From a virus, in the IMG/VR virus record IMGVR_UViG_3300037246_000452, positions 1-64,000 of that record: a stretch of DNA of 64,000 nt; one strand, given 5' to 3'. Positions 1,444-61,873 of the stretch are shown here, in pieces. The position numbers and the translations under genes are program-made. The notes beneath the pieces are model-generated. The model ran no database searches, was not told where the DNA came from, and saw nothing but the letters and a program-made list of their open reading frames with translations. The stretch's first letter is position 1. The number at the start of each line of letters is the position of its first letter.

Positions 1444-1476
1444 ACCACTACCCCCCGTTTGCAATTAATGTCAATC

Positions 1477-1809
1477 TTAGACTTCTATTTCACCTTTACC
1501 TGCTGGTCCTTTTTCTTTTTTTGCTGCCTCTACATCAGATTGAGACATCTTCTTCTGCTTCTTAGGCTTTTTAGCCTTAACCCTTGTCACTTTGGCCTCA
1601 GGCTCTGGGTCTGCTTCAATTACAACCTCACAAAAATAGAACTGGCCGTGATTGTCTTGGAGTTCCAGAAGTTCTTCCGCCTTTTTTACTGGCAGTTCGT
1701 ACACTTTCCCACCTTTGTAGGTATCATTCTCTATGCCGTAGTGATTCCTGCCTTCTTCCAGCATTACGTGCATTGTTGTTGCCTTGTCTTTTTCTTTTGT
1801 TACTATCAT
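1477..1809 (-). CDS. hypothetical protein with basic C-terminus
   Basis: The 110-residue protein has a compact N-terminal half (KGGKVYELPVKKAEELLELQ) and a low-complexity Lys/Ala/Pro tail (KAKKPKKQKKMSQ). A GGAGG site sits 5 nt before the ATG. It lies between the beta-rich structural gene and the connector gene, where phages often encode small capsid-associated or connector accessory proteins. No family was recognised, and a structural role is only inferred from position. Confidence 0.6.
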   Translation of the reverse strand: MIVTKEKDKATTMHVMLEEGRNHYGIENDTYKGGKVYELPVKKAEELLELQDNHGQFYFCEVVIEADPEPEAKVTRVKAKKPKKQKKMSQSDVEAAKKEKGPAGKGEIEV

Positions 1810-1832
1810 ATCTTCCTCCCTGATTTACGTTA

Positions 1833-1862
1833 TAAAAGAAGGGGGCTCCTCTGAGCCCCTTT
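1833..1862 (-). terminator. rho-independent terminator
   Basis: On the minus strand a perfect stem GGGGCTC/GAGCCCC with a four-base AGAG loop is followed by a T-rich run (TTCTTTTAT). It lies just after the stop of the structural gene at 1884-2783 and should limit read-through into the connector genes, or set their level relative to capsid genes. Confidence 0.8.
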
Positions 1863-1883
1863 CTCGGTTTACTTACAAAGCCC

Positions 1884-2783
1884 TTACCCTACGATGAGGA
1901 CGTTTACCTCTGAGGTAGCCGCCCAGTCGGTGCTGCCCCCGTTACCCAGTGTGACAAGCTTGTTAGCTGCGTCAATGGTATACGCACCGTCCCATGCAAC
2001 GGTATCCCCTGAAGAGTCCCTTATATGAACAAAAGCCTCAACAGGTGTGAACGGTACCACTATGTGAAGACTCCCTATGAGAACTTCCTGCGCTGTTGGT
2101 GTTCTTGCTACGCTTGCTACATAACCAGAACCTTTGTCTCGGTCACCGGCTGTAGTAGCCTCAATGGTGTTATCACCACCTGACAAGTCTTCTGAAAATA
2201 CCACGGCTGCAGCACCTATTACAGTCTGCTTGAACAATATCTCGTTTACAGATATTGCTATTGCAGCAAGTCCCTCAGTACCTTCAGCATTTACAACTGC
2301 CACTAGGGCTGCTGAGAATACCGTTGGTGTGAGTGTTGCTACCATGCCTACAGGTATCGTGGATTCAGCTGCAATACCATCACCCTTATACATTGCTGTA
2401 GTGGCTATATGCGTTGCTGCTGTGGTGCCTGAATGACCCCTACTTGCTACAAGGTTGTCGGTATCAGTGGCGGGTACATACGTGACTTTGAGAATCTCAT
2501 TCTCCAACCTAAAAAGCTGCCCTACTATGAGGCCGTGGGCATCAATGTTAAACTTCTTTTCAGTTACAGACGTGATTGCTGTGTCAAGAGTCTTGGTAGA
2601 ATCTGTATTCACTATCTCAACTTCATATACGTCGGCACCAAGAGTTACGAACTCGTCAGCCACAACATCAGCTGCAAGCCTTAGGACTGCCGAACCATTG
2701 ATGCCGGGAACAACTGCGTTAGCAAGTTGATGTATCGCTTTTCCCTTTACTGTCTCTTTGGAGACTGCACTAATCTGGTCCAT
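1884..2783 (-). CDS. beta-rich virion structural protein (decoration-like)
   Basis: This 299-residue protein is rich in Ala, Thr, Val and Gly and low in Cys and Trp, as expected of a virion protein. Residues about 75-135 contain HGLIVGQLFRLENEILKVT, later RGHSGTT and then AATH. This is a pattern (E-x-x-x-V-T then RG-x-x-GTT then H) I associate with phage tail and head decoration modules. The last 60 residues form another beta-type unit ending WAATSEVNVLIVG. It has its own terminator downstream, and one upstream after the capsid gene, so it may be expressed at a distinct level. Decoration or head-fibre protein is my best guess. Confidence 0.6.
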   Translation of the reverse strand: MDQISAVSKETVKGKAIHQLANAVVPGINGSAVLRLAADVVADEFVTLGADVYEVEIVNTDSTKTLDTAITSVTEKKFNIDAHGLIVGQLFRLENEILKVTYVPATDTDNLVASRGHSGTTAATHIATTAMYKGDGIAAESTIPVGMVATLTPTVFSAALVAVVNAEGTEGLAAIAISVNEILFKQTVIGAAAVVFSEDLSGGDNTIEATTAGDRDKGSGYVASVARTPTAQEVLIGSLHIVVPFTPVEAFVHIRDSSGDTVAWDGAYTIDAANKLVTLGNGGSTDWAATSEVNVLIVG

Positions 2784-2807
2784 ATCTTATTCCTCCTTAA
2801 TCGAATT

Positions 2808-2840
2808 TTGAAAAAGAGCAGGAGGCTTTTACACCTCCCA
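2808..2840 (-). terminator. terminator-like hairpin after capsid gene
   Basis: The minus strand has GGGAGG, an eight-base loop, CCTCC and then a T-rich tail (TGCTCTTTTTC). It follows the major capsid gene by about 20 bases. The stem is only 5-6 bp, so termination may be partial and act to give more capsid mRNA than downstream mRNA. Confidence 0.6.
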
Positions 2841-2858
2841 CCCATGGTCAGGGTTTAC

Positions 2859-5584: not shown

Positions 5585-5730
5585 AAAAAGAGTATCTCAC
5601 AGCTCCTTTTAAAAACGCAAGACTTTTTTGCAATTAGTTGCACTTTATTTTCGTGGTAGGTTTTTGCAGTTAATTGCAAAAGGTGAGGTATTACTTATTG
5701 AGTGGTGCTATGACACTATCTCTAATGAGG
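5585..5730 (-). promoter_or_regulatory. intergenic region with two dispersed palindromes
   Basis: This 146-bp gap holds no gene I can support. It contains two copies of the dispersed palindrome only about 36 bp apart, at 5628-5643 (TTGCAATTAGTTGCAC) and 5664-5679 (TTGCAGTTAATTGCAA). It is the only place in the window with two adjacent intergenic copies. A possible weak promoter facing the protease gene (TTGCGT and GATACT, 18-bp spacer) lies between the copies and the protease start. That promoter is much less convincing than the 17-bp-spaced ones elsewhere. Confidence 0.45.
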
Positions 5731-8608: not shown

Positions 8609-8632
8609 CACGTCCTCCATTTGCAATTAATT

Positions 8633-11008
8633 TCACGCAGCTTCCATGTACTCTGCATAATCAACCAGATCAGCGTAGTTGTCTCCTACCTCTGCATCCG
8701 TAATAAACTTAAGCTGGGGCGTCCAGTTGAACACCTCCTCCAATGGAAGATTCTCCATAATATCCTTCATTCTGGGTACCCACACGTCGATCATATCTTC
8801 TTTTACATAAGCTGTCAAGGAATCATGTGTCATTCCCCAAAATCTACAGCTGTCAGGCGTCCCATACTGCTCCTTAAATCGAGATAAGGACCAACATGAC
8901 AGGTCACTGAGGGCTGATTGTATTGGACTGTTTATGGCCTGTCTCTCTGCGCTGGAGCGTGTAAGACCATCCCTACTATTAATCAATGGCAGATGTCTAA
9001 TCCGTCCTAATGGTGACCGTACAAATCCCTGTAGTTTCGCATGAGTAATGTACTCCCTGTGGTAATCAATCAACTCTGGGTATAATTCAAAGAATCCATT
9101 CCGCTGCTGCTCTGCTTCCATCTCTGTCATGACTACACCATAAGTATCATAAGCAAATTCCTTATAGCCTTTTGCACTCATACCATAAATTAATCCGAAG
9201 TTACCGGCCTTCCCACCTTGCCTAATGACCTTCATGATCTTCTTATCACCCTCGTCTTTAGACTGCATCATCGCCAGTGCATCTTCAAACTCATACCCGT
9301 TCAGCATGGCACCTGTCTTTAGGTGTAGGTCAAATCCTGCTGCATAGGCTTCTATCATAGGTTTAGAATTAGCTACACAGGCAATTACTCTAAGCTCTCC
9401 CTGAGAGTAATCCCAGTTCACTATCTTGTATCCCGGTGGTGCTGTGTATCCACGTCTCAACTTATCAGCCCATTTGGTATGTTTTGGAATTGTTTGACAA
9501 GCTGGGTTTTTAAAGGATAGGCGGCCGGTTACCGTCCCTGACTCTCCTTCATCCCCTCCCACATCCCCTTTATATAGTACTGCGGTCGGGTGCAATCTAT
9601 TATCTGGCCTCAGGTGTTTCATGAATCCTACCACATAAGTACTTAGCGTTTTGGATGCTGAATTGTAAGCGTTATATTCGTCCATGAACGCCTTAGCCTC
9701 TGGGACATGGGTAAATAGTTTCATATGTTTTTTATTCGTCGAAGGTATTCTGTCCTTCATCGGCAATTTCTTAGTCTTGTCCGTCCACATCTGGGGTGTC
9801 AAGTTCAGGCCTTTCTTGGTAAACATAAACTCCTTAATAATTGCTGGCCTTGTCAGCTTGAGATTATCAGCATACTTTCCAGTTATCCGTCTTGGCATTT
9901 GCTTGAATGCAATCTTCTCTAGTCTCGCAAGTTCTTTCTCAAGCTCCTTCTGTAGCTTCATGTAGTATGGAACATCAAGAACAATCCCTTCTATCTCCAT
10001 ATCCTCGAAGGCTCTTCCTGCTGGATGTATCAGCCTTGTGTACAGGTTTACAAGTGCCCTGTCCTTAAGTAATTCCTTAGCAAATACATTCCTTACCCGT
10101 AGGCCAGCATCAGTATCCCCGCCAGCGTATGTAAGCAGATCATCCTTAGGCACCAAGTCCATCCTCGACTTATCGTGTGTGTTGTTGAAGTAGTCATCAT
10201 ACCCTCCCATATCTGTTGCTATTTTTGCGTGTGTATTTAGGCCATTCAGTCTGTTCTCATTTAACAGTGAGCCGACAATAGTACTGTCAAACTTAAAGTT
10301 GCTGCATGACATACCCCACTTAACCCTCTCCCATACCAAGTCATACTTGAGATTAGCCCCACACATCGATATATCTTGGCAGTTCATAAGCCAGTTAATC
10401 TGCTCATATAATTTATCACCTTTATTGGGTTGGTCGTCAAGCCCCTCGAAGTATACAAGGTCTGACTTCCCTTCTCTGTAACTGAATGATATTGATACAA
10501 TATGAGCACTCGGGTTAAACGATACAAGCCCTACTGTTTCAAGGTCAGTACAAACTGACACCCTCCCCTTACTCGATTTAATTCGTTCTTTAACCTTAGC
10601 AATCAACTCTGTGAAATCATCAACCCATCTATAGCTACCTACCTTGGGCTCTATACTGCCAGTATTACATTGCCTCATGGCCAGTCTTACATCAATGGTG
10701 AGGTCCACATAAGATGGATAATGTATCTCCGATATGCCGGGAGAATACGAGATCATCAAACCGCCTTGCTGGTACGGATGTATCTTGCTTCTCAAGGAAC
10801 CTGTCTTTCTACCCTTCGGTACAATACCAGCTTCTTGCAGTAATTCTAAGGGCTGACTTCCCAACGCAAAAAGAATATCCCCGGGATTTATGTCGGGGAT
10901 TTGGCCTTGCTGGAATGGTTGGATTGTGTAGCTGACACCTTGTTTGAGATACTTACCAAGGATACGATCTATTTCCTGTTTCTTACTCTTGCTCCAGATT
11001 CTTAGCAA
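8633..11008 (-). CDS. DNA polymerase, family A, with proofreading domain
   Basis: The protein is about 791 residues and replicates phage DNA. The exonuclease domain shows all three motifs: CTDLETVGL, NLKYDLVW and YAGGDTDAGLRV. The polymerase domain has motif A (NWDYSQGELRV), motif B (KAGNFGLIYGMSAKG, Phe at the position equivalent to E. coli F762) and motif C (MTHDSL). The 5'-3' nuclease domain of cellular Pol I is absent. A GTG at 11023 is in frame, but the GGGAGG site favours a TTG start at 11008, which overlaps the stop of the upstream gene. It lies just upstream of the head genes, far from the other replication genes. Confidence 0.92.
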   Translation of the reverse strand: MLRIWSKSKKQEIDRILGKYLKQGVSYTIQPFQQGQIPDINPGDILFALGSQPLELLQEAGIVPKGRKTGSLRSKIHPYQQGGLMISYSPGISEIHYPSYVDLTIDVRLAMRQCNTGSIEPKVGSYRWVDDFTELIAKVKERIKSSKGRVSVCTDLETVGLVSFNPSAHIVSISFSYREGKSDLVYFEGLDDQPNKGDKLYEQINWLMNCQDISMCGANLKYDLVWERVKWGMSCSNFKFDSTIVGSLLNENRLNGLNTHAKIATDMGGYDDYFNNTHDKSRMDLVPKDDLLTYAGGDTDAGLRVRNVFAKELLKDRALVNLYTRLIHPAGRAFEDMEIEGIVLDVPYYMKLQKELEKELARLEKIAFKQMPRRITGKYADNLKLTRPAIIKEFMFTKKGLNLTPQMWTDKTKKLPMKDRIPSTNKKHMKLFTHVPEAKAFMDEYNAYNSASKTLSTYVVGFMKHLRPDNRLHPTAVLYKGDVGGDEGESGTVTGRLSFKNPACQTIPKHTKWADKLRRGYTAPPGYKIVNWDYSQGELRVIACVANSKPMIEAYAAGFDLHLKTGAMLNGYEFEDALAMMQSKDEGDKKIMKVIRQGGKAGNFGLIYGMSAKGYKEFAYDTYGVVMTEMEAEQQRNGFFELYPELIDYHREYITHAKLQGFVRSPLGRIRHLPLINSRDGLTRSSAERQAINSPIQSALSDLSCWSLSRFKEQYGTPDSCRFWGMTHDSLTAYVKEDMIDVWVPRMKDIMENLPLEEVFNWTPQLKFITDAEVGDNYADLVDYAEYMEAA

Positions 11009-13011: not shown

Positions 13012-13668
13012 GATTTTATTATCACCATGCAATTGTCCTGTAACTAGGACAGGTGACACTTTAATATCCTTCCCTGTCAGTTTGGGCTGATGTTTAATCA
13101 ACTTGGTCTGAATTGTGTATGTCTGTGTTGATGTTTGTTTCTTGACTCCCGAGTATGCTCCTTTAGTGGGTTGTACTTTTTTAATCCCCCACTCCTTATA
13201 CAGGAAATCAATCTGTGCTTTCGACTCAACCACCTTCTTACAGTAATTCTTTCTGACGTAGCTAATACTATCAACTTCCCCTGTCATATGGGTTACCAGT
13301 GCTGAGAAGAAAGTCCCGGTCCTTCCGTGCCCACCAATGCAACCGGCATGTACCTGCTTTCCTGCAATTAATTGCAATGCCGTCCATTTCACCAGATTCT
13401 CAAAATGCTTTGCGTTGCTTGGCGCCTTCATATCAACTATGTGGAAATGTATGTGCTCCCCTTCAATCCATGGAAACTGTCTAAAGGTCTGCTTCATACC
13501 TGAGTCGAACCCTATGAAAACCTCCACTCCTTTATCCGGTATTACGTTGCATGAACCCCCACTAATATAATGCGTTCCGTCCTTAGTAATGATTGGTAAT
13601 AATGGATGCGTTTCCCAACATCGTTTCCAACCACTTGTTACAGTCTTCATATCAAATGCTCCTGTCAT
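12997..13668 (-). CDS. dual-specificity/tyrosine phosphatase-like protein
   Basis: The 223-residue protein carries the phosphatase P-loop C-x5-R in HAGCIGGHGRTGTFF, near residues 116-130, with the Thr after the Arg that is usual in the superfamily. Upstream, HIHFHIVDMKAPSN supplies a plausible general-acid Asp. The basic C-terminal 60 residues (KKQTSTQTYTIQTKLIKHQ) are extra. Two starts are possible: ATG 13668, overlapping the upstream TGA, and ATG 13650, behind AGGAG. A second phosphatase of the same type lies in the same transcript at 14997-15482. The substrate could be protein or RNA 5'-phosphate; the sequence does not decide. Confidence 0.75.
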   Translation of the reverse strand: MTGAFDMKTVTSGWKRCWETHPLLPIITKDGTHYISGGSCNVIPDKGVEVFIGFDSGMKQTFRQFPWIEGEHIHFHIVDMKAPSNAKHFENLVKWTALQLIAGKQVHAGCIGGHGRTGTFFSALVTHMTGEVDSISYVRKNYCKKVVESKAQIDFLYKEWGIKKVQPTKGAYSGVKKQTSTQTYTIQTKLIKHQPKLTGKDIKVSPVLVTGQLHGDNKILTNQ

Positions 13669-14768: not shown

Positions 14769-14802
14769 ATTGCCCTCCTTGGCTGTGCAATTAATTTCAA
14801 AT

Positions 14803-18807: not shown

Positions 18808-19130
18808 TTTCCACCCCTCCCTATGTTGGTTGGTAGTACTGACATCTTCGCCTCTATCTGTTCCTGTGTTTCATCAAAGGCTGTACATCCTAATCCTAGA
18901 AAGTACTCTTGATTTTGATTAATGAAATTAATTGCACTGATCTCAAAGTCTAATGCCTTAAGTCTTAATCCTACAGCTTTGGCCTCCATAGCAATTAGCT
19001 TATTCTGTAGTCGTCTCCTTTCTTTCTCTTCTACCTGCCAGTGTAATGTAGCACTTACCCATAACCCTGTCATAACCAAAGCCATAACTATAAAAAACCA
19101 TGTCCAACCCTCTCCTTCTTTAAGCTTCAT
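18804..19130 (-). CDS. single-pass membrane protein with coiled coil
   Basis: The 108-residue protein starts at ATG 19130 (MKLKEGEG), behind GGGGGG and overlapping the upstream TGA. It has one membrane segment, WTWFFIVMALVMTGLWVSA, at about residues 9-27, then a charged heptad-like helix (QVEEKERRRLQNKLIAMEAKAV). This layout is shared by phage spanin-like and inhibitor proteins, but no family is recognised. It contains a reversed copy of the dispersed palindrome at 18922-18937. Confidence 0.6.
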   Translation of the reverse strand: MKLKEGEGWTWFFIVMALVMTGLWVSATLHWQVEEKERRRLQNKLIAMEAKAVGLRLKALDFEISAINFINQNQEYFLGLGCTAFDETQEQIEAKMSVLPTNIGRGGK

Positions 19131-20100: not shown

Positions 20101-20283
20101 TTATGTCCAGCCCTGTGATTTGAGGAAATTACAAAGCTGCATGGTTTCATCATAAAGCTTATGATCTGAATTCCTATCCCCCAAATGTTTTAGCAGCCAG
20201 TTCGCATTTCTGGTCTTGCCTATAGGAATATCCAACTTTGCAGTTAATTGCACCAGTTTACTTTCCGCTTCCTTCCGTACCAT
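20101..20283 (-). CDS. small hypothetical protein
   Basis: A 60-residue protein starting at ATG 20283 behind GGAGG, inside the end of the upstream gene. It is helical (KEAESKLVQLTAKLDIPIG) and ends QLCNFLKSQGWT. The codons for LVQLTAKL contain a copy of the dispersed palindrome at 20238-20253. No family was recognised. Confidence 0.5.
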   Translation of the reverse strand: MVRKEAESKLVQLTAKLDIPIGKTRNANWLLKHLGDRNSDHKLYDETMQLCNFLKSQGWT

Positions 20284-23031: not shown

Positions 23032-23055
23032 ACCCTTCCTCCTTTGCAATTAATT

Positions 23056-23313
23056 TCAAACAAATACGTATTCTATAGCAGAATGAACTACAAACACACA
23101 AGGTACTCCTCGGTACTTGCTGGAGTAATACCTAACATGGTAGTCATTCTTTATTGTCAGGCCACTATTCTTGTACATAGGAAACAATGTAGCCAGTTCC
23201 TGCGTGTCTATATGGCTTAGGAAAGTTGTGTACTTAATCTCTCTAGCCAACTCTATCATTTCAGAGATATCCTCACCTTTTGCTTGTACACAATTAATCA
23301 GATATGTCTTCAT
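23056..23313 (-). CDS. hypothetical protein
   Basis: An 85-residue protein starting at ATG 23313 behind GGAGG, inside the end of the upstream acidic gene. It has alpha/beta character (ISEMIELAREIKYTTFLSH, KNDYHVRYYSSKYRGVPC). Its TGA stop is part of the palindrome at 23044-23059. No family was recognised. Confidence 0.55.
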   Translation of the reverse strand: MKTYLINCVQAKGEDISEMIELAREIKYTTFLSHIDTQELATLFPMYKNSGLTIKNDYHVRYYSSKYRGVPCVFVVHSAIEYVFV

Positions 23314-23818: not shown

Positions 23819-23849
23819 ACCTACTCCTTGCAGTTAATTGCAAACTACC

Positions 23850-25710: not shown

Positions 25711-25739
25711 AGTATACCTTTTTATAAGTGGTTTGTCAA
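25711..25739 (-). promoter_or_regulatory. sigma70-type promoter with upstream palindrome
   Basis: TTGACA (25734-25739) and TATACT (25711-25716), spacer 17 bp. A perfect copy of the dispersed palindrome (25747-25762) lies 7 bp upstream of the -35 box. The segment around the -35 is nearly the same as at the promoter at 33816-33844. Confidence 0.87.
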
Positions 25740-37677: not shown

Positions 37678-38328
37678 TTAAACCTCCCTCAAAAAGTTTA
37701 ATGTATATCCTTCTGCATACTTATGGCCACACTTGGCCCCAATCACTTTATGTACTGCTTCTATGTTTTCCATCGATCTTGGATGAACGCCACTCCTTGC
37801 CTCCCTCCGGTACTGCTCTATTGCAATTAATTTCACCATCAAGTCATTAGCAGTCATAGGGATGAAATAATTGGCACTGGTCGGTATTCCGTCAAACGCA
37901 TGTGCTTCTAATATCCTGACTACTCCCTGTAGGTTAGCAGGTCTTAGTGCTATCTTGCAAGCATGATTTAAAAATTTATGATCTTGGTTCATATCTGAGG
38001 CCGAGGGTATTACTACTTCGTGGGGACTAAAGGTACTTAATACTCCCTCTATCCTCTCCAGTATCTTATAGTAGCCTACTTGTGCCGGCTCTCCCTCGGT
38101 CAGGTTCATACATCTATGCAGCTGATAGCCCAGCTTCTCTTTAGCTTGCATAAAATCCAAGCACTGCTCTGCGTATGATTCATCCACGGTCTCCTTGCCA
38201 TACTCATACACCCTACCGTACACTGTGAGTACAAATACTTCCCCGCCCTCACGAATTCTTCTAACAACTAAAGCCCCCGTTGAGAGGGCTTCGTCGTCCA
38301 TATGTGCTGCTATTATTAAAGTTCTCAT
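37678..38328 (-). CDS. PIG-L/LmbE-type deacetylase
   Basis: The 216-residue protein has the zinc site of the PIG-L family: IIAAHMDDEALSTGA at the N-terminus, the NQDH motif in SASDMNQDHKFLNHA, and the closing GHKYAEGY. Known members remove acetyl groups from N-acetylglucosamine-linked substrates. With GalE a few genes upstream, it may serve sugar decoration of virion or DNA, or modify host surface sugars. The substrate is not visible in the sequence. A palindrome copy lies within the gene (37821-37836). Confidence 0.85.
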   Translation of the reverse strand: MRTLIIAAHMDDEALSTGALVVRRIREGGEVFVLTVYGRVYEYGKETVDESYAEQCLDFMQAKEKLGYQLHRCMNLTEGEPAQVGYYKILERIEGVLSTFSPHEVVIPSASDMNQDHKFLNHACKIALRPANLQGVVRILEAHAFDGIPTSANYFIPMTANDLMVKLIAIEQYRREARSGVHPRSMENIEAVHKVIGAKCGHKYAEGYTLNFLREV

Positions 38329-39710: not shown

Positions 39711-40681
39711 GTTAATTGTTGCTCCCACTCCCATGCATCCTGCACCATAGAGGTCAGGTCACTGTGCTCAGGCTCCCACCCGAAACGACTTCTTATCCTC
39801 TTATTGTCGGCCACTGCTCGGGCTACATCCCCCTCCCTCCTTGGGGCGTGTATAACAGGTAGCATCATACCAGTGACTCTCTCCACCTCAACTACCATAT
39901 CTTCCACTGAATACCCCTCACCCGTTCCTACGTTTAAGGTAATAGATGGGGTGTCCTCCTCTAAATACCTTACAGCCTGAATATGAGCCTCCGATACATC
40001 CTTTACATGGACATAATCGCGTAAGCATGTGCCGTCTGGGGTGTCATAGTCCGTACCGTAAATAGAAAGCTCTGACTTATTCTTAATGGCGTTGAAACAA
40101 TTCTTTAGCAGGTGGGTTGCTTTGGGGTTGCGGGGGCCAATACCATTTACAAGGTCAGCTCCCAGCACATTGAAATACCTCAGGATTGCATACTTGATAC
40201 CTATACGATCTGCCGCACTGGTTATCATCTGCTCTCCCACCATCTTGGTCATGCCATAAGGATTGCTAGGGTTCAAAGGTGTAATTTCTGTCAGGGTCAT
40301 ACTACTTTTAGTTGCCCCATACACTGCTGCCGTGCTGGAGAATATCAAGCGTTTAACACTTGTGCAGTTAATTGCACTGAGCAATGCGATTACTCCTCCG
40401 ATGTTATTCTCATAATACTTCAAGGGGTCTTCGACTGATTCCGGGGCTGAGAGGCTGGCAGCAAACATCATTACTGTATCTACTTTGTACTCATTAATCA
40501 CTGACCTTACTCTGTCCACCTCCTGAACTCTGGCTACCACACACCTAACATGCTTGGGGAGACTCGCAGGGTGGCCGGTTGAAAGGTCGTCGATCACTAC
40601 AACTTCTTCCCCTTGATTTACTAGCTGGTGTACTACTGTACTGCCGATATACCCTGCCCCTCCTACTACTAATGTACTCAT
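39707..40681 (-). CDS. galE: UDP-glucose 4-epimerase
   Basis: The 324-residue protein is a full-length short-chain dehydrogenase of the GalE type: NAD-binding GGAGYIGS at residue 7, VIDDLSTGH, the catalytic SSTAAVYG and YGMTK pair (Tyr and Lys near residues 142 and 146), RYFNVLGAD and DYVHVKDVSEAH. It interconverts UDP-glucose and UDP-galactose, or the acetylated forms. Start has AAGGAG. Its likely use is to supply sugars for modification, in step with the PIG-L-type gene. Confidence 0.92.
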   Translation of the reverse strand: MSTLVVGGAGYIGSTVVHQLVNQGEEVVVIDDLSTGHPASLPKHVRCVVARVQEVDRVRSVINEYKVDTVMMFAASLSAPESVEDPLKYYENNIGGVIALLSAINCTSVKRLIFSSTAAVYGATKSSMTLTEITPLNPSNPYGMTKMVGEQMITSAADRIGIKYAILRYFNVLGADLVNGIGPRNPKATHLLKNCFNAIKNKSELSIYGTDYDTPDGTCLRDYVHVKDVSEAHIQAVRYLEEDTPSITLNVGTGEGYSVEDMVVEVERVTGMMLPVIHAPRREGDVARAVADNKRIRSRFGWEPEHSDLTSMVQDAWEWEQQLT

Positions 40682-44337: not shown

Positions 44338-45216
44338 TTAAACTGCAACCTCAATATCTATGTTGGGATATAAAGCGGCAAACGTGTTAAGGGTATCATC
44401 TGGACCGACTTCTTCCATAAGTTCTTTAAGAGTCTTTTGTTTACCCTTACCCTTCCCCTTGCCTAATCCGTTTTCTAAGAATTGCTGACAAATGTATTCA
44501 AGAGCAACCGTGTTATATTCCGTACCACTTGTTTTCATTTGTTTAGCCACTGCAGCTTCAATAATTTCCTTTTGGTCGGTATGCACCTTGAATGTTAGCG
44601 TGGTAACGGTATTGCCTGTATCTCCGGCCCCGTCATCACCACCTTCATCCGTACCGCCCAGACTTTTAACAGTTTCAATTAACTGCAGGCACGTCATCGA
44701 ATTGGCCTTTTCAACCCACTCTTCCACGTTCTCCTCATTAAGCAGGTGAGCAATTTCTTTCAGCTTGGTCCAGCCGACTGACTTAACGTCGTCCCACTTA
44801 ACACCGGACTCAACAAGGTCTCTGTAAATCTGAACGAGATACATGGCCTTCCTGTAATGCATGCCGAATTCATCAGTGATGTAGTCCTTGAAAGACTCAT
44901 GACCTGAGAACCAATCCTCCTCCTGCATTTTGGAGAGAAAACCACCGATCTTGAAGTTATTGAATTCACCTTCCTCGATGAGTTCCTTAACCAGATCAGA
45001 GACTTCAGTTTCCTTGATGTTTTCAACGGCAAATACCGTCTGAACAATCAAGTCCTCGCTGACCTCCTTCTTTGCCTTTGTCTTCGCCTTTGGTGCTGCC
45101 TTTGTTGCTGATTCTGTTGCTCCTTCTTTCGCCTTCGTTTTAAGTGCCATATCCTTTCCTCCTGTTTTTGTAGCCTCGACCTTCGTAGTCTCTGGCTTAG
45201 TTTCTGTTTCGGCCAT
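44338..45216 (-). CDS. hypothetical phage protein with low-complexity ends
   Basis: The 292-residue protein has a Lys/Ala/Thr-rich N-terminus, a folded core (FKIGGFLSKMQEEDWFSGHE, YLVQIYRDLVESGVKWDDV, SVGWTKLKEIAHLLNEENV) and a C-terminus with a Gly/Lys run (GLGKGKGKGKQK). ATG 45216 has GGAGG, and an internal ATG 45150 (MALKTKAKE) also has a strong AGGAGG site. The core resembles a phage helical domain seen next to replication genes. Its function is unknown. It forms a one-gene transcript with its own promoter, which hints at high expression. Confidence 0.6.
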   Translation of the reverse strand: MAETETKPETTKVEATKTGGKDMALKTKAKEGATESATKAAPKAKTKAKKEVSEDLIVQTVFAVENIKETEVSDLVKELIEEGEFNNFKIGGFLSKMQEEDWFSGHESFKDYITDEFGMHYRKAMYLVQIYRDLVESGVKWDDVKSVGWTKLKEIAHLLNEENVEEWVEKANSMTCLQLIETVKSLGGTDEGGDDGAGDTGNTVTTLTFKVHTDQKEIIEAAVAKQMKTSGTEYNTVALEYICQQFLENGLGKGKGKGKQKTLKELMEEVGPDDTLNTFAALYPNIDIEVAV

Positions 45217-45260: not shown

Positions 45261-45289
45261 ATTATACCTAATTGAATATGGTTTGTCAA
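45261..45289 (-). promoter_or_regulatory. sigma70-type promoter with upstream palindrome
   Basis: TTGACA (45284-45289) and TATAAT (45261-45266), spacer 17 bp. A perfect palindrome copy (45297-45312) lies 7 bp upstream of the -35. Confidence 0.88.
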
Positions 45290-45313
45290 GTAAATATTGC
45301 AGTTAATTGCAAA

Positions 45314-46260: not shown

Positions 46261-46316
46261 ATTGTCCCCCTGTGCAATTAATTGCAACTACTTGCGTGAT
46301 TTGGCCCCTACATACT

Positions 46317-51125: not shown

Positions 51126-51159
51126 ACTTCAATCCTCCTGACTATTGCAATTAATTTCA

Positions 51160-51474
51160 CTAGGACTCAAGGTCGTCAAGCATACCCTGCATTTTTTTAC
51201 CTACCCACTCATACCCCTCATTGAAAGCCTCATCAAGGTCAACCTTCTCACAAGGAATTGATACCCCTACATCGAACCGGATACTTTCATAGTCTCCAAG
51301 GTTCACGGTCTTACCAGCTTTGACTGTTACAATGCATGCCTCCCCTTCTATAATCTTACCCCCCAAATCCTCCTCTTGGGTATCAATCACTTCATCCTCA
51401 CCTTTACCTTTAGTCATCGTAACCGTGCCTTTACCTTTTGCCAGTTCTTCTTTCTTTTTCTTAAACTTTAGCAT
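51160..51474 (-). CDS. hypothetical protein
   Basis: A 104-residue protein with a Lys-rich start, an acidic middle (GEDEVIDTQEEDLGG) and a beta stretch (EACIVTVKAGKTVNLGDYES, RFDVGVSIPCE) followed by an acidic helix. It is cotranscribed with recA, and its stop lies at a palindrome copy. A replication accessory role is possible but not shown. Confidence 0.58.
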   Translation of the reverse strand: MLKFKKKKEELAKGKGTVTMTKGKGEDEVIDTQEEDLGGKIIEGEACIVTVKAGKTVNLGDYESIRFDVGVSIPCEKVDLDEAFNEGYEWVGKKMQGMLDDLES

Positions 51475-51937: not shown

Positions 51938-53338
51938 CTATTTATCTACTACAATCGCGCCTATCTCATGATACCACGCTAATCTTTTATTTTCGTATCC
52001 CTGAAATACGTTACTGGTCTTGTCCAGTACATCAAAGACTATTGGCACCACGCCTTTAACCTTTCCCCACTCTGAAGCATCTATCTTACCTTCATACTCC
52101 CTCAATATCCTGCCCACTGTCTGCCTTACATCTGAGCGAGGATGACATAGGATTGCTGTATTCCACCAAGGGGCGTCAGTACCCTCTTCACACATCTTAA
52201 ATGTTGCTAGGACTAATGGGAGGGCTTTAATACGATCTCGTTCTGCCTCTGCCTTAATACCCCCTATGAAGTACCCCATGTCATCTTTAGGTACTCCAAG
52301 CCCTCTAAGCTTCCCCTCTAACAGTTCTAACATTTCTTTTGTCTCAGAGAATACCACCACGTTTCTGCCAGCCTTATGGCATTGCCTAGCAAATTGCGCT
52401 ATCAGGTTCGTCCTGCTTTTATGCCTCGACAACATCTTATTTAGATGCATGGTCTTGCCGGCCGTATGTGGTAGTGGGCCTATACTTGACTCCCCTGTTA
52501 CTTTATCTTTTATTACTACCTGCGGTATCTTCCATGTAGACGTAACCCGTATTACCTTTGGTACCATAGGGAGTCCGTCTGCTACTATTCGTACAGGACC
52601 AATATGTGCCCTAAATACCACATCCCTACCATCCTTACGTTTGGGGGTGGCAGATAGGCCCATCCTTAATAATGCCGGGAAGAGCCACATAGCCTCACTA
52701 AACTTTTCTGCCCCCATCCTGTGAACCTCATCACATATTATAAACCCGAAGTCTTTATACACCCAAGAAGGATATCTCCCTCTTTTGCAAAGACTCTGCA
52801 TGTATCCTATAACTACTTTCTTTCCTACAACATCACATTTGTCCCCGTATATCTCCCCGATCTCTGAATCCTTTAACCCCAGAAAGTCCCTGCAAGCTTT
52901 GCGCCACTGGCCCTTCAAGTCTTCTTTATGTACCATTATGAGAGTTTTTCTTCCCACATTGGCAATCAACTGCATACTACAGGCAGTCTTTCCCTTTCCT
53001 GTTGCAGCCTGAATCACAAATGACTCTCTTGCTTGCAGGAGCTTTGTCGCGTCACGGACTATCCTGACTTGATCATCGTTCCTTGGCTTAAATGATGAAG
53101 TGAAATTAATTGCAGGGCCAACCACTCGTCTGTCGTCATCAGATACAGGTGTACAGTTTCTAGGTATCTCTATCAATGGTTTACTACTATTGGTGCTGAG
53201 TAGTCTATACATCTTGATATCTTCTTTGTCTTCAAACCTAGACTTACGGGTGTACATCTTCTCAAATGCCTTAGTATATTCGTACACTGCTGAACTTCCT
53301 GTCCATAGTGGTTTTTGTGTCTGCATCAACTTCTTCAT
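51938..53338 (-). CDS. SF2 DNA helicase
   Basis: The 466-residue protein shows superfamily 2 motifs in order: I QAATGKGKTACS near residue 112, II ICDEVHRMG, III GLSATPKRKDG, IV VVVFSETKEML, V FKMCEEGTDAP and VI RQTVGRILREYEG. It resembles UvsW/RadD-like phage helicases that remodel recombination or replication intermediates. The start is ATG 53338 behind AAGGAG. A reversed palindrome copy lies at 53100-53115 within the gene. Confidence 0.9.
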   Translation of the reverse strand: MKKLMQTQKPLWTGSSAVYEYTKAFEKMYTRKSRFEDKEDIKMYRLLSTNSSKPLIEIPRNCTPVSDDDRRVVGPAINFTSSFKPRNDDQVRIVRDATKLLQARESFVIQAATGKGKTACSMQLIANVGRKTLIMVHKEDLKGQWRKACRDFLGLKDSEIGEIYGDKCDVVGKKVVIGYMQSLCKRGRYPSWVYKDFGFIICDEVHRMGAEKFSEAMWLFPALLRMGLSATPKRKDGRDVVFRAHIGPVRIVADGLPMVPKVIRVTSTWKIPQVVIKDKVTGESSIGPLPHTAGKTMHLNKMLSRHKSRTNLIAQFARQCHKAGRNVVVFSETKEMLELLEGKLRGLGVPKDDMGYFIGGIKAEAERDRIKALPLVLATFKMCEEGTDAPWWNTAILCHPRSDVRQTVGRILREYEGKIDASEWGKVKGVVPIVFDVLDKTSNVFQGYENKRLAWYHEIGAIVVDK

Positions 53339-54462: not shown

Positions 54463-55421
54463 AATTCAATTCCCATCCTTTCGAGGTTCTCTGCAATTAC
54501 TTGCAATGGGGTTTCCCCCGCATCCCCGTACTCTTCCTCTGGTTCTATGTGAGAACATTTTACTCCCAACTTCTTGAAGTGCTTCTCTGCCCTCTCTCGT
54601 CCACGATCTCCACCAGTCCCTATGTCGAAGTACGTCACTATCTCGGCAGCGTCCCTTAGCCTCTTATATTTTGCGTCAGGCATACTTCCCATCAGTCCCG
54701 CAGCCACGTTTGGATACACTTCATAGATTCTTAATAGATCAAATGGGCCTTCTACTACCACCACCGGCTCATCTAGGTCAAGCTTATCTTCGTTCATCCA
54801 TATCTGAGGATTTCTGTGTCCCTGATAATCATAAGCGTAATACCTTAGTTGTGCCTCCCCCGTCACGTCCCTACCGTGCAATCCATAACATCTTCCGTGA
54901 AAGTCCATGACCGGAAAACATACCGTCTGCCTCTGGAAGTCGAACTTAATGTTCAAATCATCAACTACGCAGTCTGGAACTTCTCGCCCCTTCAGGTATG
55001 GATGCCCTTTGGCTGAATTGAATGAGTTTAACCATACCATTGGAAACTCCACCAGCTCCCCCACCTTACTTTGCATGGTCTCATCATAGTCGAGGATACC
55101 TTCTGTTTCATCGTCTTCCTCTTCTTCAAGAGCAATCTCAAGGGCAGACTTGATATCTACATCAACTTTGTGCTCAAGTCTATTCATCATCCGAATATCC
55201 ATTACAAGATCATAAGCATTACCCACGAACCCGCAAGTGAAACAATGAAACAAAGATTCGCCATGAGATTGCTCACCTCCACCAAAGGAAGGGTTGTTGT
55301 CCGTCCCGTTGGTGTGCTTCCAAGGAGCCCGGGGGCATTGTGCTGTAACCCATGTGGACGTACCCCCTTTAAGCTTTGCTCCTAAAAAGGTGAGGAACTG
55401 AGTTATATCATGGCGCTTCAT
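54459..55421 (-). CDS. DnaG-type primase
   Basis: The 320-residue protein has an N-terminal zinc domain (QCPRAPWKHTNGTDNNPSFG, FHCFTCGFVGN) and a TOPRIM domain with VVVVEGPFDLLRIYEVYP (catalytic Glu) and TYFDIGTGGDRGRERAEKHF (acidic site). The core between them reads LNIKFDFQRQTVCFPVMDFH. It makes primers for replication. It is shorter than cellular DnaG and lacks the helicase-binding tail, as in many phages. GGAGG lies before its ATG. Confidence 0.88.
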   Translation of the reverse strand: MKRHDITQFLTFLGAKLKGGTSTWVTAQCPRAPWKHTNGTDNNPSFGGGEQSHGESLFHCFTCGFVGNAYDLVMDIRMMNRLEHKVDVDIKSALEIALEEEEDDETEGILDYDETMQSKVGELVEFPMVWLNSFNSAKGHPYLKGREVPDCVVDDLNIKFDFQRQTVCFPVMDFHGRCYGLHGRDVTGEAQLRYYAYDYQGHRNPQIWMNEDKLDLDEPVVVVEGPFDLLRIYEVYPNVAAGLMGSMPDAKYKRLRDAAEIVTYFDIGTGGDRGRERAEKHFKKLGVKCSHIEPEEEYGDAGETPLQVIAENLERMGIEL

Positions 55422-57068: not shown

Positions 57069-59183
57069 TCAATCCAGAAATAACATATCATCGGTATTTT
57101 CCATAACTTCTTGAAAATTCATTAAATTAAAATCCCAGTTTATATTGAATCCACCTACCTCACCATTCCTACCTTTGAGAATGTTTACTTTTCTCTGCAT
57201 TTTGGTTGCGATGCTCTCCTCCTCCAATAGACCTAGAACTATAGTGCTGAGCTGACCAATAGCATCTGAATACCCAATATCCTCAAGTCCTATATCCTCT
57301 CCTTTACTTGCCTTCATTTTCTTGGCTGCGTCCCTGTTAAACTGGTAGCTGCAGATTGTCGGGATTCCAAGATCGGTTGCCAATGCTTGCTTTATAAGTT
57401 CCGCATTCTCATCAATCCTTGCAAACTTATTCATTCTCTTATCTGGGTGCTTTAGTAGGTATGCTCCATCGATGATAAGGGCTCCCGGTTTCAACTGTTT
57501 ACATAGTGCCCAGATATCCTCAACTGTAGCTGTGAGGTTACCATCTACAATCCAGCAAGGGACTGGATGATCTTCCATCAGTTTCAAGCCATGAGTCATC
57601 TGCTTATACCCTGCTGTAGACAAGGCTGCTTGTTTGATATGAGTTAATGGTTTATGGGTATGCATTGCCGCCACTCGTTGTATCAAGGGTAAGGGCGTCA
57701 TTTCCATTGAGACCAGAAGCGTTGGGCGTTTCATCTTACTCCATATGTAATGCATAATGAATAAGAGAAGAAATGTCTTTCCTGAATTGTGTGTAACAAA
57801 TCCTTCAGCTATAAAGTTATTGTAAGGGTCGGCACATACTAAGTCATAAGTATCTTCCATCCCAAATAATTCAATACTTATTATTTTCTCTGCATGTACC
57901 AAATTCTGTCCGAAACGACTTCTAGTCCCCTCATACCCCATCCCTGCACCGTGCTCTTTACCATGCTCTGAGTTTGTCAATAATCCTAAATTCGATACAG
58001 CATTGTTATTAGTATCCTCATCTTTATGATGTATATGCAACGAGCTTTCAGAGAATACAAAACCGTGATTTGGGTTCGTTTTCAATTGCTGAATAAAGTC
58101 TTGGAGGTTAACTCCATTTAGGGCTGCGTCATAATTAGCTCGCTGCTCTAGTACTCTATGGTATACACACCCATTTATAACTCTGGTGGGATAAGGGGCG
58201 TAGGGCATCTTTGTACAAATCTCTTTTCTGTAGCGTCCAGTTTGTTTATAACCTTTTCCAGTATCAGGAGCTTTACATATTACCTCGTCGCCTACTACTA
58301 AATCTCCCAAAGGCCTAAAACCATTAGGTGTCATAAACATGTGGTCTGTGGTTGCCCTTACTACTTTTCCCGATTCCGTAGTAACAGTGTATGTCTCCTT
58401 CTTTCCAGAGTACACAATATCTTCGACTATGTTAAGCCCTGTCAAGTCGTCGTCCATCAAAGATTGTACTCTCGTGGGGATACTTAAATCCCACTTTCTA
58501 GCACCCCTTCCTTGTTTAGCGGTTTTTCCATGCATTCCTCGGTATACCTCTTTGAGGGTGTAATACCTCCCACTACCTTTTGATTTTCTGGAGATATAAA
58601 GTTTTGTATCACCGGATAAACAAGCCGGCCGGCCCACGATAGATATAACGTCTCCCGGCATTAAACCCCCGGTCATCTTGTCGAGGTAATCCCATCCGGT
58701 ATTGATTCCGTAGTCGTCCCCAAACTTCATCTTTTCTTTATATTCTTTGGTGATAATATCACAAGCATGCCTAAAGTCTACCAGTTGAGTACCGTACTTC
58801 TTAACTGTGAGGCCTGTTAGTATCCCTGTAAGCATTTCAATGGCTTGGCCAGGGTTCATGTTCTCTTTGGTCAAGAACATCTTTGCTTCGTCGAATCCTT
58901 GCTTCAAGGCATTATGAAAATATCTATCCTTTACCTTGTCGGCATAGAATGAGGCCGGTTCAATGGCCTTTGGCAATATAAGGTCTTCAAACTGATTTTC
59001 TACTGTGGCCATCTTTGGGATAGTACCGTGATCATGGATGAAGTTCTTTATATAACCATGCAACTCCAACTCTGTGGGGCGCAGATAATCTGTATCTATA
59101 CAAAGCTTGACGAATGATTCAACATCACCTTCCTTGATAATGGATGAAATTAATTGCAATCCTATCGAACTCTTCTTAATCAT
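57069..59183 (-). CDS. dnaB: DnaB-type replicative helicase with intein
   Basis: The 704-residue precursor contains a 279-residue intein (residues 188-466), leaving a 425-residue helicase. The N-terminal part is short. The helicase core shows GINTGWDYLDKMTGGLMPGD, the P-loop VGRPA joined to SGKTFLLLF after splicing, Walker B GALIIDGAYLL and SYQFNRDAAKKMK. The insertion cuts the P-loop, so the helicase is inactive until splicing. The adjacent 191-residue gene may be its loader. A reversed palindrome copy lies near the start (59144-59159). Confidence 0.9.
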   Translation of the reverse strand: MIKKSSIGLQLISSIIKEGDVESFVKLCIDTDYLRPTELELHGYIKNFIHDHGTIPKMATVENQFEDLILPKAIEPASFYADKVKDRYFHNALKQGFDEAKMFLTKENMNPGQAIEMLTGILTGLTVKKYGTQLVDFRHACDIITKEYKEKMKFGDDYGINTGWDYLDKMTGGLMPGDVISIVGRPACLSGDTKLYISRKSKGSGRYYTLKEVYRGMHGKTAKQGRGARKWDLSIPTRVQSLMDDDLTGLNIVEDIVYSGKKETYTVTTESGKVVRATTDHMFMTPNGFRPLGDLVVGDEVICKAPDTGKGYKQTGRYRKEICTKMPYAPYPTRVINGCVYHRVLEQRANYDAALNGVNLQDFIQQLKTNPNHGFVFSESSLHIHHKDEDTNNNAVSNLGLLTNSEHGKEHGAGMGYEGTRSRFGQNLVHAEKIISIELFGMEDTYDLVCADPYNNFIAEGFVTHNSGKTFLLLFIMHYIWSKMKRPTLLVSMEMTPLPLIQRVAAMHTHKPLTHIKQAALSTAGYKQMTHGLKLMEDHPVPCWIVDGNLTATVEDIWALCKQLKPGALIIDGAYLLKHPDKRMNKFARIDENAELIKQALATDLGIPTICSYQFNRDAAKKMKASKGEDIGLEDIGYSDAIGQLSTIVLGLLEEESIATKMQRKVNILKGRNGEVGGFNINWDFNLMNFQEVMENTDDMLFLD
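57786..58622 (-). mobile_element. intein with HNH homing domain in dnaB P-loop
   Basis: The intein begins CLSGDTKLYI at residue 188 and ends GFVTHN at 466, followed by Ser. Block B is GKVVRATTDHMFMTPNG, block F TYDLVCADPYNNFIAEG. The middle holds LHIHHKDEDTNNNAVSNLGL with LLTNSEHGKEH, an HNH-type endonuclease segment. All splice residues (Cys1, block B T-x-x-H, His-Asn end, +1 Ser) are present, so splicing should work. Inteins at this P-loop site are known in RecA and helicase families. Confidence 0.9.
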
Positions 59184-59191
59184 ATGGCTCC

Positions 59192-60172: not shown

Positions 60173-60347
60173 GATTATTATTCTTAGCCTTAGCATGCTC
60201 TCGGTACTCCTTAATATTATTTTGTAACATTAACACGCTATTCTTACAACAATGTCCGGCCATATAGTGCCCTGCCTCGATAAATTCTTTCTCAAGTTCT
60301 CGAAGTAAGGCGCAGCACTTAGAGGCGTTAGCTATAATATTACTCAT
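60156..60347 (-). CDS. small helical protein with Cys pairs
   Basis: A 63-residue protein with SKCCALLRELEKEFIEAGHY and AGHCCKNSVLM: two CC pairs and two His might bind metal. AGGAGG lies before its ATG. No family was recognised. Confidence 0.55.
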   Translation of the reverse strand: MSNIIANASKCCALLRELEKEFIEAGHYMAGHCCKNSVLMLQNNIKEYREHAKAKNNNLDKTK

Positions 60348-60571
60348 AAGAATCCTCCTACTAAATACTCAAGTCCACTAATGGCACGGTAATCCGTTGT
60401 TGCTAAAATCATGTCATGATCGTCTTGTAACTCCTGTCGTATTACCTCTGCCGGTATACATATCTCAGAGAAGCCGGGACTTACACTTATCTTAGATTCA
60501 TCGTACCTAAATTCGTCCGGGTCAAGATACCCGTATGTTTCGTTCCAAGCTACCTCGTCAAAGTCTTGCAT
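60344..60571 (-). CDS. small acidic protein
   Basis: A 75-residue acidic protein (FDEVAWNETYGYLDPDEFRY, VIRQELQDDHDMI). GGGAGG lies before ATG 60571. First after the promoter at 60606-60634. No family was recognised. Confidence 0.55.
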   Translation of the reverse strand: MQDFDEVAWNETYGYLDPDEFRYDESKISVSPGFSEICIPAEVIRQELQDDHDMILATTDYRAISGLEYLVGGFL

Positions 60572-60605
60572 AACATCCCTCCCTATAGTTTCACCAACAG
60601 ATGTC

Positions 60606-60634
60606 AGGGTAGCACTGAGCTATTGTTTAGTCAA
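60606..60634 (-). promoter_or_regulatory. sigma70-type promoter
   Basis: TTGACT (60629-60634) and TACCCT (60606-60611), spacer 17 bp. It is the weakest match in the set, but has the same geometry, and its TGA is the stop of the upstream membrane-protein gene. Confidence 0.65.
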
Positions 60635-60774
60635 GGGCAAGGTGGCTGAATAGGAAGTAACCATAATAGTCTCACCAGTAACCCAAAAGTGTAAGCTATA
60701 AAACATACTATTAACAAACCACGTAGCATAGTAGGCTTTAGCCGTCCTTCCTCTAAATACTCAAAGTTCCTCAT
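60631..60774 (-). CDS. 47-residue membrane protein
   Basis: The protein MRNFEYLEEGRLKPTMLRG continues with one membrane helix (LLIVCFIAYTFGLLVRLLWL). GGGGGG precedes ATG 60774, which overlaps the preceding gene's TGA. Its own TGA sits in the -35 box of the next promoter. Confidence 0.58.
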   Translation of the reverse strand: MRNFEYLEEGRLKPTMLRGLLIVCFIAYTFGLLVRLLWLLPIQPPCP

Positions 60775-60875
60775 ATAACCCCCCATACCCATATACCTAA
60801 GTTAATGATTAGTATCCATGATACTCCTAAAATGACAGTGATACATGCGGCTATTACTGTATTATTCCAATTCAT
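60771..60875 (-). CDS. 34-residue membrane protein
   Basis: The protein MNWNNTVIAACITVILGVSW continues with ILIINLGIWVWGVI and is nearly all membrane helix. AAGGAGG lies before ATG 60875, which overlaps the initiator-gene stop. With the 47-residue protein it forms a pair of tiny membrane proteins, possibly holin-like. Confidence 0.58.
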   Translation of the reverse strand: MNWNNTVIAACITVILGVSWILIINLGIWVWGVI

Positions 60876-61837
60876 ACTTTACCCTCCTTCTCTAATTGTT
60901 CAAGTTCTTCCAGTGTCATAGGTTTATGCTCTTTCAGTTCCACCACCTTTGGCTTCTCCTTCTTTGGTTGTGCAGTTAATTGCAAACCAGTCTTCTTTCC
61001 TGCCTCAGTCAAGGCATCTACATTTTGCTTCATCCATGCTATTGCCAGTTCAGTGTTTGAAAGCAGGAATCCGAGGATAGGTTTATCGGGGGGAGTCTTC
61101 ATCCCTAGACTGTCCTTACAGTGCATATGGAAGTCTATCCACCGGGGGATAATATACTCCACCATAGGTAAAACATCATTCCCTCCTTTTCGTATCATGT
61201 CTTTAAAGTTCCGGGTATCTTTCATTGTAAAAGTCAGATACTCAACTCCCTGTGTTTCAATCATCAGCTGCCGGTAAGTTTCCTTTACCTGATTTAGAGG
61301 TGACATCTTCTTTACCTGCTCCTCTTTATTCTTCTTGAATTGCTCTATCATAGAACTTGCTCCGCCCTTCGTATACTTCATAAACTCCTCCGCTATTTCT
61401 TTTTTTGTTTTACTAGAAAGGAGGTCGCCTTCTCTATAAGCCTTCTCTACTAGCCTTATAAGCCTTTGGGTGGCAGTGTGCAACATATCCATTGCATAGT
61501 GCGACTCCTCTAAGGCAGTGTGCAACATATCCGTCTCACTGTGCAACATACTAATAGTCTCACTCTGCGACTTATATGATGCACCCTGCAACTGCTCAGT
61601 ATCAAGAGAATACGTTACACTTTTAGATTTTCCAGATACCGTAACCCATCCATTCTTCTTAAGACTTGTGAGTGCTCTGAACACCGTGGACCTATCCATA
61701 CCCATGAACTTTGCTATAGTGTCTACAGAAGGCCATGCCTTGCCTTCCTCATTAGCATAAGTGGCCAGTACCTGTAGCACCATCTTCTCCGTACCTTTCA
61801 AGTCTGAATCTAATACCAGCTTGTTCCACTTAAACAT
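60872..61837 (-). CDS. winged-helix replication initiator (lambda O-like)
   Basis: The 321-residue protein has an N-terminal winged helix: KGTEKMVLQVLATYANEEGK, WPSVDTIAKFMGMDRSTVF and RALTSLKKNGWV. This is followed by a heptad-repeat segment (residues about 79-121, ISMLHSETDMLHTALEESHY) encoded by the iteron array, and then a helical C-terminal part. The plan of DNA-binding N-domain, internal repeats and partner-binding C-domain matches lambda O and other initiators whose origin lies inside the gene. A palindrome copy lies near the C-terminus (60970-60985). Confidence 0.72.
   Translation of the reverse strand: MFKWNKLVLDSDLKGTEKMVLQVLATYANEEGKAWPSVDTIAKFMGMDRSTVFRALTSLKKNGWVTVSGKSKSVTYSLDTEQLQGASYKSQSETISMLHSETDMLHTALEESHYAMDMLHTATQRLIRLVEKAYREGDLLSSKTKKEIAEEFMKYTKGGASSMIEQFKKNKEEQVKKMSPLNQVKETYRQLMIETQGVEYLTFTMKDTRNFKDMIRKGGNDVLPMVEYIIPRWIDFHMHCKDSLGMKTPPDKPILGFLLSNTELAIAWMKQNVDALTEAGKKTGLQLTAQPKKEKPKVVELKEHKPMTLEELEQLEKEGKV
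61391..61602. other. candidate replication origin: six ~21-bp iterons and AT-rich tract
   Basis: Six repeats start at 61474, 61495, 61516, 61537, 61561 and 61582 (spacing 21, 21, 21, 24, 21), consensus CASTGTGCAACATATCC; copies 1 and 3 share 17 bases. On the gene's downstream side an AT-rich tract follows (61391-61420). Iterons then an AT tract inside the initiator gene is the arrangement of lambda ori. Confidence 0.68.
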
Positions 61838-61873
61838 ATTTTCCTTTTTGCAATTAGTTTCAATCTTTAATAG

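Follow-up and report, generated by a model that had tools for sequence, protein, structure and literature searches.

A dispersed palindrome in the genome of a large siphovirus and a candidate core protein that may bind it

The palindrome and the candidate locus

The window analysed here comprises positions 1-64000 (64,000 nucleotides) of the virus record IMGVR_UViG_3300037246_000452. This record is 89,218 bp long and carries a 127-bp direct terminal repeat, and thus the genome is practically complete. About 40 copies of a palindromic DNA motif, TTGCAATTAAYTGCAA, are spread across the 89.1-kb genome, with 28 residing in the window, whereas a dinucleotide Markov null predicts about 0.6 genome-wide. 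One of these copies precedes a gene whose product is our candidate for the protein that binds the sites. The features at this locus are the following, where palindromic sites are given without strand.

44338..45216, minus strand: gene for the putative site-binding protein (292 residues, phrog_17202), nominated by its core status, covariation and an AlphaFold2 model
44673..44688: palindromic site within the candidate binder gene
45261..45266, minus strand: -10 element TATAAT of the candidate binder gene, 17-bp spacer
45284..45289, minus strand: -35 element TTGACA of the candidate binder gene, 7 bp downstream of site 45297
45297..45312: palindromic site upstream of the candidate binder gene's own promoter

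Selection on the sites as DNA

A search of the window for TTGCARTTAATTKCAA with three or fewer mismatches yields 58 strand-matches at about 29-31 places, compared with 2.98 +/- 1.81 in dinucleotide shuffles. The original prediction described about 28 near-identical 16-bp sites with twofold symmetry in this window, and named shuffled and codon-preserving nulls as well as conservation in relatives as checks. The sites are indeed present in this number, and none of 100 shuffles reaches the observed count. The symmetry holds for a 14-bp core, TGMAATTAAYTGCA, which is the conserved and informative part of the motif. However, perfect 16-bp palindromes are absent (11 copies have a single mismatch), and the outer base pair is weakly conserved.

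Intergenic gaps and their margins hold 19 of the 40 sites, where about 10% would be expected, and about 12 sites adjoin a ribosome-binding site. The remaining 21 lie within open reading frames (ORFs) and use the two frames that avoid a TAA stop. When synonymous codons were randomised 200 times, coding sites with two or fewer mismatches numbered 0.71 on average and 3 at most, versus 14 in the actual sequence. Orientation is also biased in this genome, with AACTGCA on the gene strand 13 times and its mirror 2 times. By inspection, the largest site-free gap is 4.9 kb. These computations show that strong selection acts on the sites at the DNA level.

Lineage-specific versions of the motif in relatives

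Terminase, capsid and replication proteins place the virus with Delepquintavirus (DLP5), the Vibrio VHS1-like phages, RcZahn and RHph_TM16. Its terminase and capsid are about 50-56% identical to those of these relatives, and a DNA megablast search against phages gave no match. Palindromes of the same geometry, either identical or lineage-specific, occur in 13-50 copies per relative. The named carriers are Stenotrophomonas phages DLP5 and DLP3, Vibrio phage VHS1, Rhodobacter phage RcZahn and Rhizobium phage TM16, accompanied by dozens of viral contigs. An unbiased dyad search likewise recovered, in nearly every genome, a dispersed palindrome of its own with this geometry.

The palindrome of most relatives is TGCAATNNATTGCA. 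Other versions are TGCACTTAAGTGCA in genomes G001, L223 and L241, TGCACCNNGGTGCA in L243, GTCCAATNNATTGGAC in G003, GGCAATNNATTGCC in L218 and GTGATCNNNNGATCAC in G013, in addition to TGCAAC and TGCAAG types (L233, L217) and TGAAAT and TGACAT types (L204, L179); for the 20-kb loci, the assigned type is based on a small number of sites. Genome G022, at first scored as lacking a motif, carries 8 copies of TGMACTTAAGTKCA where 0.5 are expected. Our computations show that the word differs from lineage to lineage while its geometry stays constant. A separate observation is a common GGATCGnnCGATCC palindrome in L242 (Azospirillum sp. RU38E) and viral contig L190, which lies outside the residue-153 rule described below.

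Conservation in relatives is evident from DLP5 and DLP3, where 33 of 35 sites are kept and identity is 97.7% within sites versus 83.5% in the flanks. One site is inverted in orientation between the two phages. In 10 of 12 genomes tested (the exceptions are G001 and G013), the sites are spaced more regularly than expected at random, with coefficients of variation (CVs) of 0.46 in DLP5, 0.49 in G002, 0.52 in G016 and 0.61 in G000, each with p<=0.001. The largest site-free gap in DLP5 is about 6 kb by inspection.

A fixed promoter architecture

Upstream of the candidate binder gene, the sequence reads TTGCAATTAACTGCAA-tatttac-TTGACA-N17-TATAAT. Among 397 sites from 30 phage records or loci, a -35 element starts exactly 7 bp past the site in 21 cases, compared with 0.13 expected per offset. 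Promoters with this 7-bp link have near-consensus -35 boxes and are almost exclusively on the gene strand, and sites beside poor -35 boxes have no enrichment of -10 elements. Promoter-linked sites are a minority, amounting to 28 of 376 (about 7%).

A site is located near the start of the candidate binder gene in 31 of 40 genomes versus 8.1 expected, whereas seven neighbouring core genes have a site near their start in 1-13 genomes versus about 7 expected. The computed positions therefore show that the candidate's own promoter has a site at a fixed distance, as does a minority of other strong promoters.

The candidate binding protein

All larger genomes have in common structural, replication and recombination proteins plus one helix-turn-helix (HTH)-like protein, the product of 44338-45216, whose homologue is a core protein found in 13 of 13. 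In DLP5 and RcZahn, its gene closes a run composed of recA, a junction nuclease, a Cas4-type exonuclease and ruvC. The protein belongs to phrog_17202, which is annotated as of unknown function, and this PHROG match is its only assignment, as no Pfam family was matched. The AlphaFold2 model predicts a disordered Lys/Ala-rich N-terminus, a helical domain (residues 56-187) with an HTH formed by helix 109-117 and recognition helix 121-137, and a ribbon-helix-helix (RHH)-like segment at about 203-248. Sequence and fold searches of the PDB gave no significant match, and viral fold matches are to unannotated proteins, with weak DUF3102 and ParB-like hits.

The homologues in DLP5 and DLP3 are gp067 and gp62, respectively. 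Mass spectrometry of DLP3 virions named gp61 and others but not gp62 (PMC7326821), which argues weakly against a packaged coat, given that the ghosts analysed had lost their DNA. From sequence comparison, the product of 44338-45216 is very probably the protein that binds the palindromes.

Covariation between protein and motif

Support for this assignment comes from residues that change together with the motif, with half-sites numbered from the centre as T7 G6 C5 A4 A3 T2 N1. We compared 37 positions of the protein that are conserved across 38 genomes with TGCAAT half-sites. In the TCCAAT lineage, R122S, Y126H and L147V are all the changes among these columns, and in the GGCAAT lineage K123T and A124I are the sole changes. 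R122, K123, A124 and Y126 are altered in none of the 38 TGCAAT genomes, and residues 122-126 form the start of the predicted recognition helix. An early impression that this protein does not track the motif was overturned once the columns were restricted to those conserved in the TGCAAT class.

A second relationship involves base 3 of the half-site. Arg is found at position 153 in 6 of 6 genomes with C3 and in 0 of 56 with A3. The six include L241 and L243, which were added once the rule was known and which both fit it. Among 2206 columns from nine co-inherited core proteins, residue 153 is the only perfect separator of C3 from A3, and the next best column has a Matthews correlation coefficient of 0.80. 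A tree of seven other core proteins implies at least five independent switches of base 3, each accompanied by K153R. The residue analysis is partly post hoc, and G015 with related genomes (R153 with a variable base 3), L189, and L190/L242 (half-sites unalignable) stand outside the residue-153 test. Within this scope, the computations show that residues of the HTH and residue 153 change with the word.

A possible genome-wide silencer

On balance, we favour a model wherein the palindromes are sites for a dimeric phage protein encoded by 44338-45216 (minus strand) that may act as a master silencer. Each HTH of the dimer would read one half-site, with R122, K123, A124 and Y126 contacting the outer bases and residue 153 discriminating the inner A or C. 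The protein might limit its own synthesis, modulate RNA polymerase where a site is centred near -50, and act genome-wide at the roughly 90% of sites that have no promoter. Even spacing would leave no stretch longer than about 5-6 kb free of sites. Such a master regulator would keep the extrachromosomal phage DNA silent, as C1 silences the plasmid prophage P1 through its dispersed operators.

Granting the binder, by analogy silencing comes close to an even chance without quite attaining it. It is the leading reading because DLP5 (PMC8228603) and VHS1 (PMC3148565) are reported to be extrachromosomal in lysogens, and because P1, whose prophage is a plasmid, uses 22 operators for its autoregulated C1 (PMC8546580). 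More tentatively, the system might be a viral equivalent of bacterial nucleoid organisers, in which a single autoregulated dimeric protein might mark the whole genome at regularly spaced palindromes kept by selection, combining promoter control with silencing or organisation, and protein and site might co-evolve as a private 'self' code of each lineage.

Several observations dampen our enthusiasm for this model. The candidate binder is encoded within the replication-recombination module by a core gene that all members have, whereas typical immunity repressors are dispensable. The site lies upstream of the promoter rather than over it, the majority of sites are far from promoters, and VHS1 has no site near its binder gene. 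The HTH and RHH assignments come from a predicted structure that has no significant PDB match. For residue 153, a sign test on five phylogenetic pairs gives p 0.0625, the lowest attainable value, and the rule is incomplete, since Ser, Gln or Ala at this position likewise pairs with A3 (RcZahn, L177, L305-L322). In addition, L189 combines G3 with A153, L190/L242 (GATCG) keep K153 with the helix otherwise unaltered, and a search of the protein for residues that covary with the TGAAAT and TGACAT types found none.

Alternative explanations

The same protein might mainly organise or segregate circular phage DNA through bridging, compaction or partition, with promoter effects being secondary. We consider this unlikely as the main role. 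Nevertheless, an organising role must be reckoned with because of the universal conservation of the gene, the even spacing and the ORF-internal sites. Bounded gaps (CV 0.46-0.61, p<=0.001 in DLP5, G002, G016 and G000), the absence of a linked promoter at about 90% of sites, the flipped site between DLP5 and DLP3, the location of the gene beside recA, nuclease and ruvC genes, and the extrachromosomal state reported for DLP5 and VHS1 would all suit such a function. However, the 7-bp distance to the -35 element and the site at the gene's own promoter point to a role in transcription, there is no structural match to MatP or similar proteins, and G001 and G013 have no significant regularity.

Less likely again is a lytic-cycle switch, in which the protein serves as an activator or modulator at -50 of a few promoters and the other sites are decoys or weak roadblocks. 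The fixed 7-bp spacing is suggestive of contact with RNA polymerase, the protein is conserved in all members, and two sites lie ahead of the capsid-gene cluster. However, an activator should be unneeded at near-consensus -35 boxes, poor ones have no -10 enrichment, and this model leaves the strong conservation and even spacing of about 90% of sites unexplained.

It is quite improbable that another protein reads the sites. The original prediction of a phage-encoded dimeric protein acting on sites throughout the genome is supported, with the dimer suggested by symmetry, but the two binders it named fail. The MerR-like protein (51489-51929, minus strand) is encoded by a syntenic gene resembling transcription regulators. 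However, a homologue is undetected in RcZahn and TM16 despite their sites, at the sensitivity of the searches used here and for the other missing homologues. Also, phages with TGCAAT half-sites have widely different versions of its recognition helix, which does not track the motif. MerR-type operators have the site within the -35/-10 spacer, whereas here the site ends 7 bp upstream of the -35 element. The target of the MerR-like protein does not appear to be the palindrome. The protein evolves fast and carries at its N-terminus a conserved basic motif, WYxxNxxxxxxxRxxRYxxDPxYR.

The ParB-like protein (36843-37676, minus strand) is undetected in VHS1, G003, G015 and G008, all of which have sites, and only ParB_N is detected in it, without the HTH-bearing part of ParB. 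Its gene adjoins terminase and is patchy among relatives. An XRE-type HTH protein of RcZahn and TM16 was not found in the other genomes searched, and the RepO-like initiator has an N-terminal domain that varies among phages with the same motif. A host factor is difficult to reconcile with a motif common to phages that infect Vibrio, Stenotrophomonas and Rhodobacter.

The chance is slim that the palindromes are Chi-like or initiator sites for replication or recombination, at which the protein would load or arrest the recA/nuclease machinery. The sites are frequent and even, and the gene ends the recA to ruvC run. However, Chi-type sites are asymmetric and strand-specific, whereas the sites here are symmetric with a fixed promoter link, and RepO-like initiators have different N-terminal domains in phages that share a motif.

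We can practically dismiss an RNA-level element or codon-usage artefact despite the many copies ahead of ribosome-binding sites and the LQLIA-type codons, as the synonymous-codon null (14 versus 0.7) and the use of two frames reject the latter, common variants (A at 4 with G at 13; C at 11 with A at 6) break hairpin pairs, an Rfam search found tRNAs only, and sites are conserved within ORFs too.

Other sites and neighbouring genes in the window

The remaining sites in the window, with their linked promoters, are as follows. The pair at 5628 and 5664 precedes the capsid-gene cluster.

1459..1474: palindromic site, intergenic
5628..5643: palindromic site, intergenic, upstream of the prohead protease gene
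5664..5679: palindromic site, intergenic, pair of the 5628 site
8621..8636: palindromic site at a gene boundary, includes the upstream TGA stop
13362..13377: palindromic site, ORF-internal
14785..14800: palindromic site at the 5' end of an ORF
18922..18937: palindromic site, ORF-internal
20238..20253: palindromic site, ORF-internal
23044..23059: palindromic site directly 5' of a ribosome-binding site
23828..23843: palindromic site directly 5' of a ribosome-binding site
25711..25739, minus strand: promoter TTGACA-N17-TATACT, 7 bp downstream of site 25747
25747..25762: palindromic site, promoter-linked
27740..27755: palindromic site near a terminator-like hairpin
31273..31301, minus strand: promoter TTGACA-N17-TATAAT, 6 bp downstream of site 31308
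31308..31323: palindromic site, promoter-linked
33816..33844, minus strand: promoter TTGACA-N17-TATAAT, 7 bp downstream of site 33852
33852..33867: palindromic site, promoter-linked
34250..34265: palindromic site directly 5' of a ribosome-binding site
36947..36962: palindromic site within the ParB-like gene
37821..37836: palindromic site, ORF-internal
39319..39334: degenerate palindromic site, ORF-internal
40362..40377: palindromic site, ORF-internal
46272..46287: palindromic site 5' of a ribosome-binding site
51145..51160: palindromic site at a gene boundary upstream of recA
53100..53115: palindromic site within the helicase gene
54491..54506: palindromic site within the primase gene
59144..59159: palindromic site within the dnaB gene
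60970..60985: palindromic site within the RepO-like gene
61848..61863: palindromic site directly 5' of the ribosome-binding site of the RepO-like gene

Several other genes, all on the minus strand, are worth noting. The DnaB-type helicase (57069-59183) has an apparent in-frame intein in its Walker A loop (GRPA|CLSGDTK ... THN|SGKT) that contains an HNH-like stretch, HIHHKDEDTNNN. HNH-endonuclease-like genes, possibly encoding homing endonucleases, are found within the replication module at 43651-44268, 49110-49541, 55438-55899 and 56442-57059. A pyruvate phosphate dikinase homologue (16205-16906) has 233 residues versus about 640-735 in DLP5, DLP3 and RcZahn, and looks like an N-terminal fragment. 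An RtcB-like RNA ligase gene (17170-18363) adjoins two tRNA genes (Asp and Pro). Finally, a small conserved protein (15899-16195), present in 12 of 13 larger genomes, has weak similarity to CsrA (E 7e-5, below the Pfam cut-off).

Significance and comparison with known systems

These findings suggest what a core family of proteins with no annotated function may do in large siphoviruses of a widespread group. This group includes phages of Vibrio, Stenotrophomonas, Rhodobacter and Rhizobium as well as numerous uncultivated viruses. The covariation would amount to a readable code for protein-DNA specificity, in which residue 153 specifies base 3 of the half-site and the recognition helix specifies the outer bases. 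If this code is true, K153R should move the preference from A3 (TTGCAATTAATTGCAA) to C3 (TGCACTTAAGTGCA). Control or organisation of a whole genome by extrachromosomal prophages thus becomes testable, and motif variants may mark immunity groups, with a bearing on superinfection. Among the papers searched, none contained the motif strings, and term searches of the RcZahn and DLP3 papers likewise turned up nothing on palindromes.

The original prediction cited mycobacteriophage stoperators and parS arrays as analogies, of which the former is near and the latter is not supported. ParB/parS systems also involve palindromic sites on an extrachromosomal replicon. However, parS sites are usually clustered, whereas the sites here are dispersed and evenly spaced, and the ParB-like protein is undetected in several site-bearing relatives. 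MatP/matS, Noc/NBS and SlmA/SBS each use short palindromes distributed over a bacterial replicon and read by one dimeric protein, and MatP also has an RHH. These are bacterial chromosome systems that resemble ours in the dispersal of palindromes along a replicon, whereas here some sites are linked to promoters and the candidate has no significant PDB sequence or fold match.

The SPBRE of phage SPbeta is a repeated phage element that, like the palindrome, was found in silico, long before its binder MrpR (PMC10516654). Unlike the present case, SPBRE occurs in about 10 promoter regions and MrpR has a tyrosine-recombinase fold. L5 stoperators are similar in that more than 20 sites per genome occupy promoters and short intergenic gaps (PMC9283540), and in that site versions vary by lineage. 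However, stoperators are 13-bp, asymmetric, monomer-bound and orientation-dependent, whereas the site here is symmetric, belongs to a different protein and is ORF-internal in 21 of 40 cases. Its orientation is biased in this genome, yet one site is flipped between DLP5 and DLP3.

A further comparison is with P1, a temperate plasmid phage with 22 dispersed operators and a C1 repressor that also acts on its own promoters (PMC8546580). Operators of P1 are asymmetric and 17 bp long, whereas our site is a palindrome with even spacing and about half of its copies within ORFs. Unlike C1, the candidate binder is encoded by a conserved gene of the replication module, and a relation between the two proteins was undetected, with no direct comparison run. 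The temperate state is known from relatives only. As in P1, there are many dispersed copies (about 40 here and 13-50 in relatives), and an operator-like site is located at the promoter of the putative regulator itself in 31 of 40 genomes, versus 8.1 expected.

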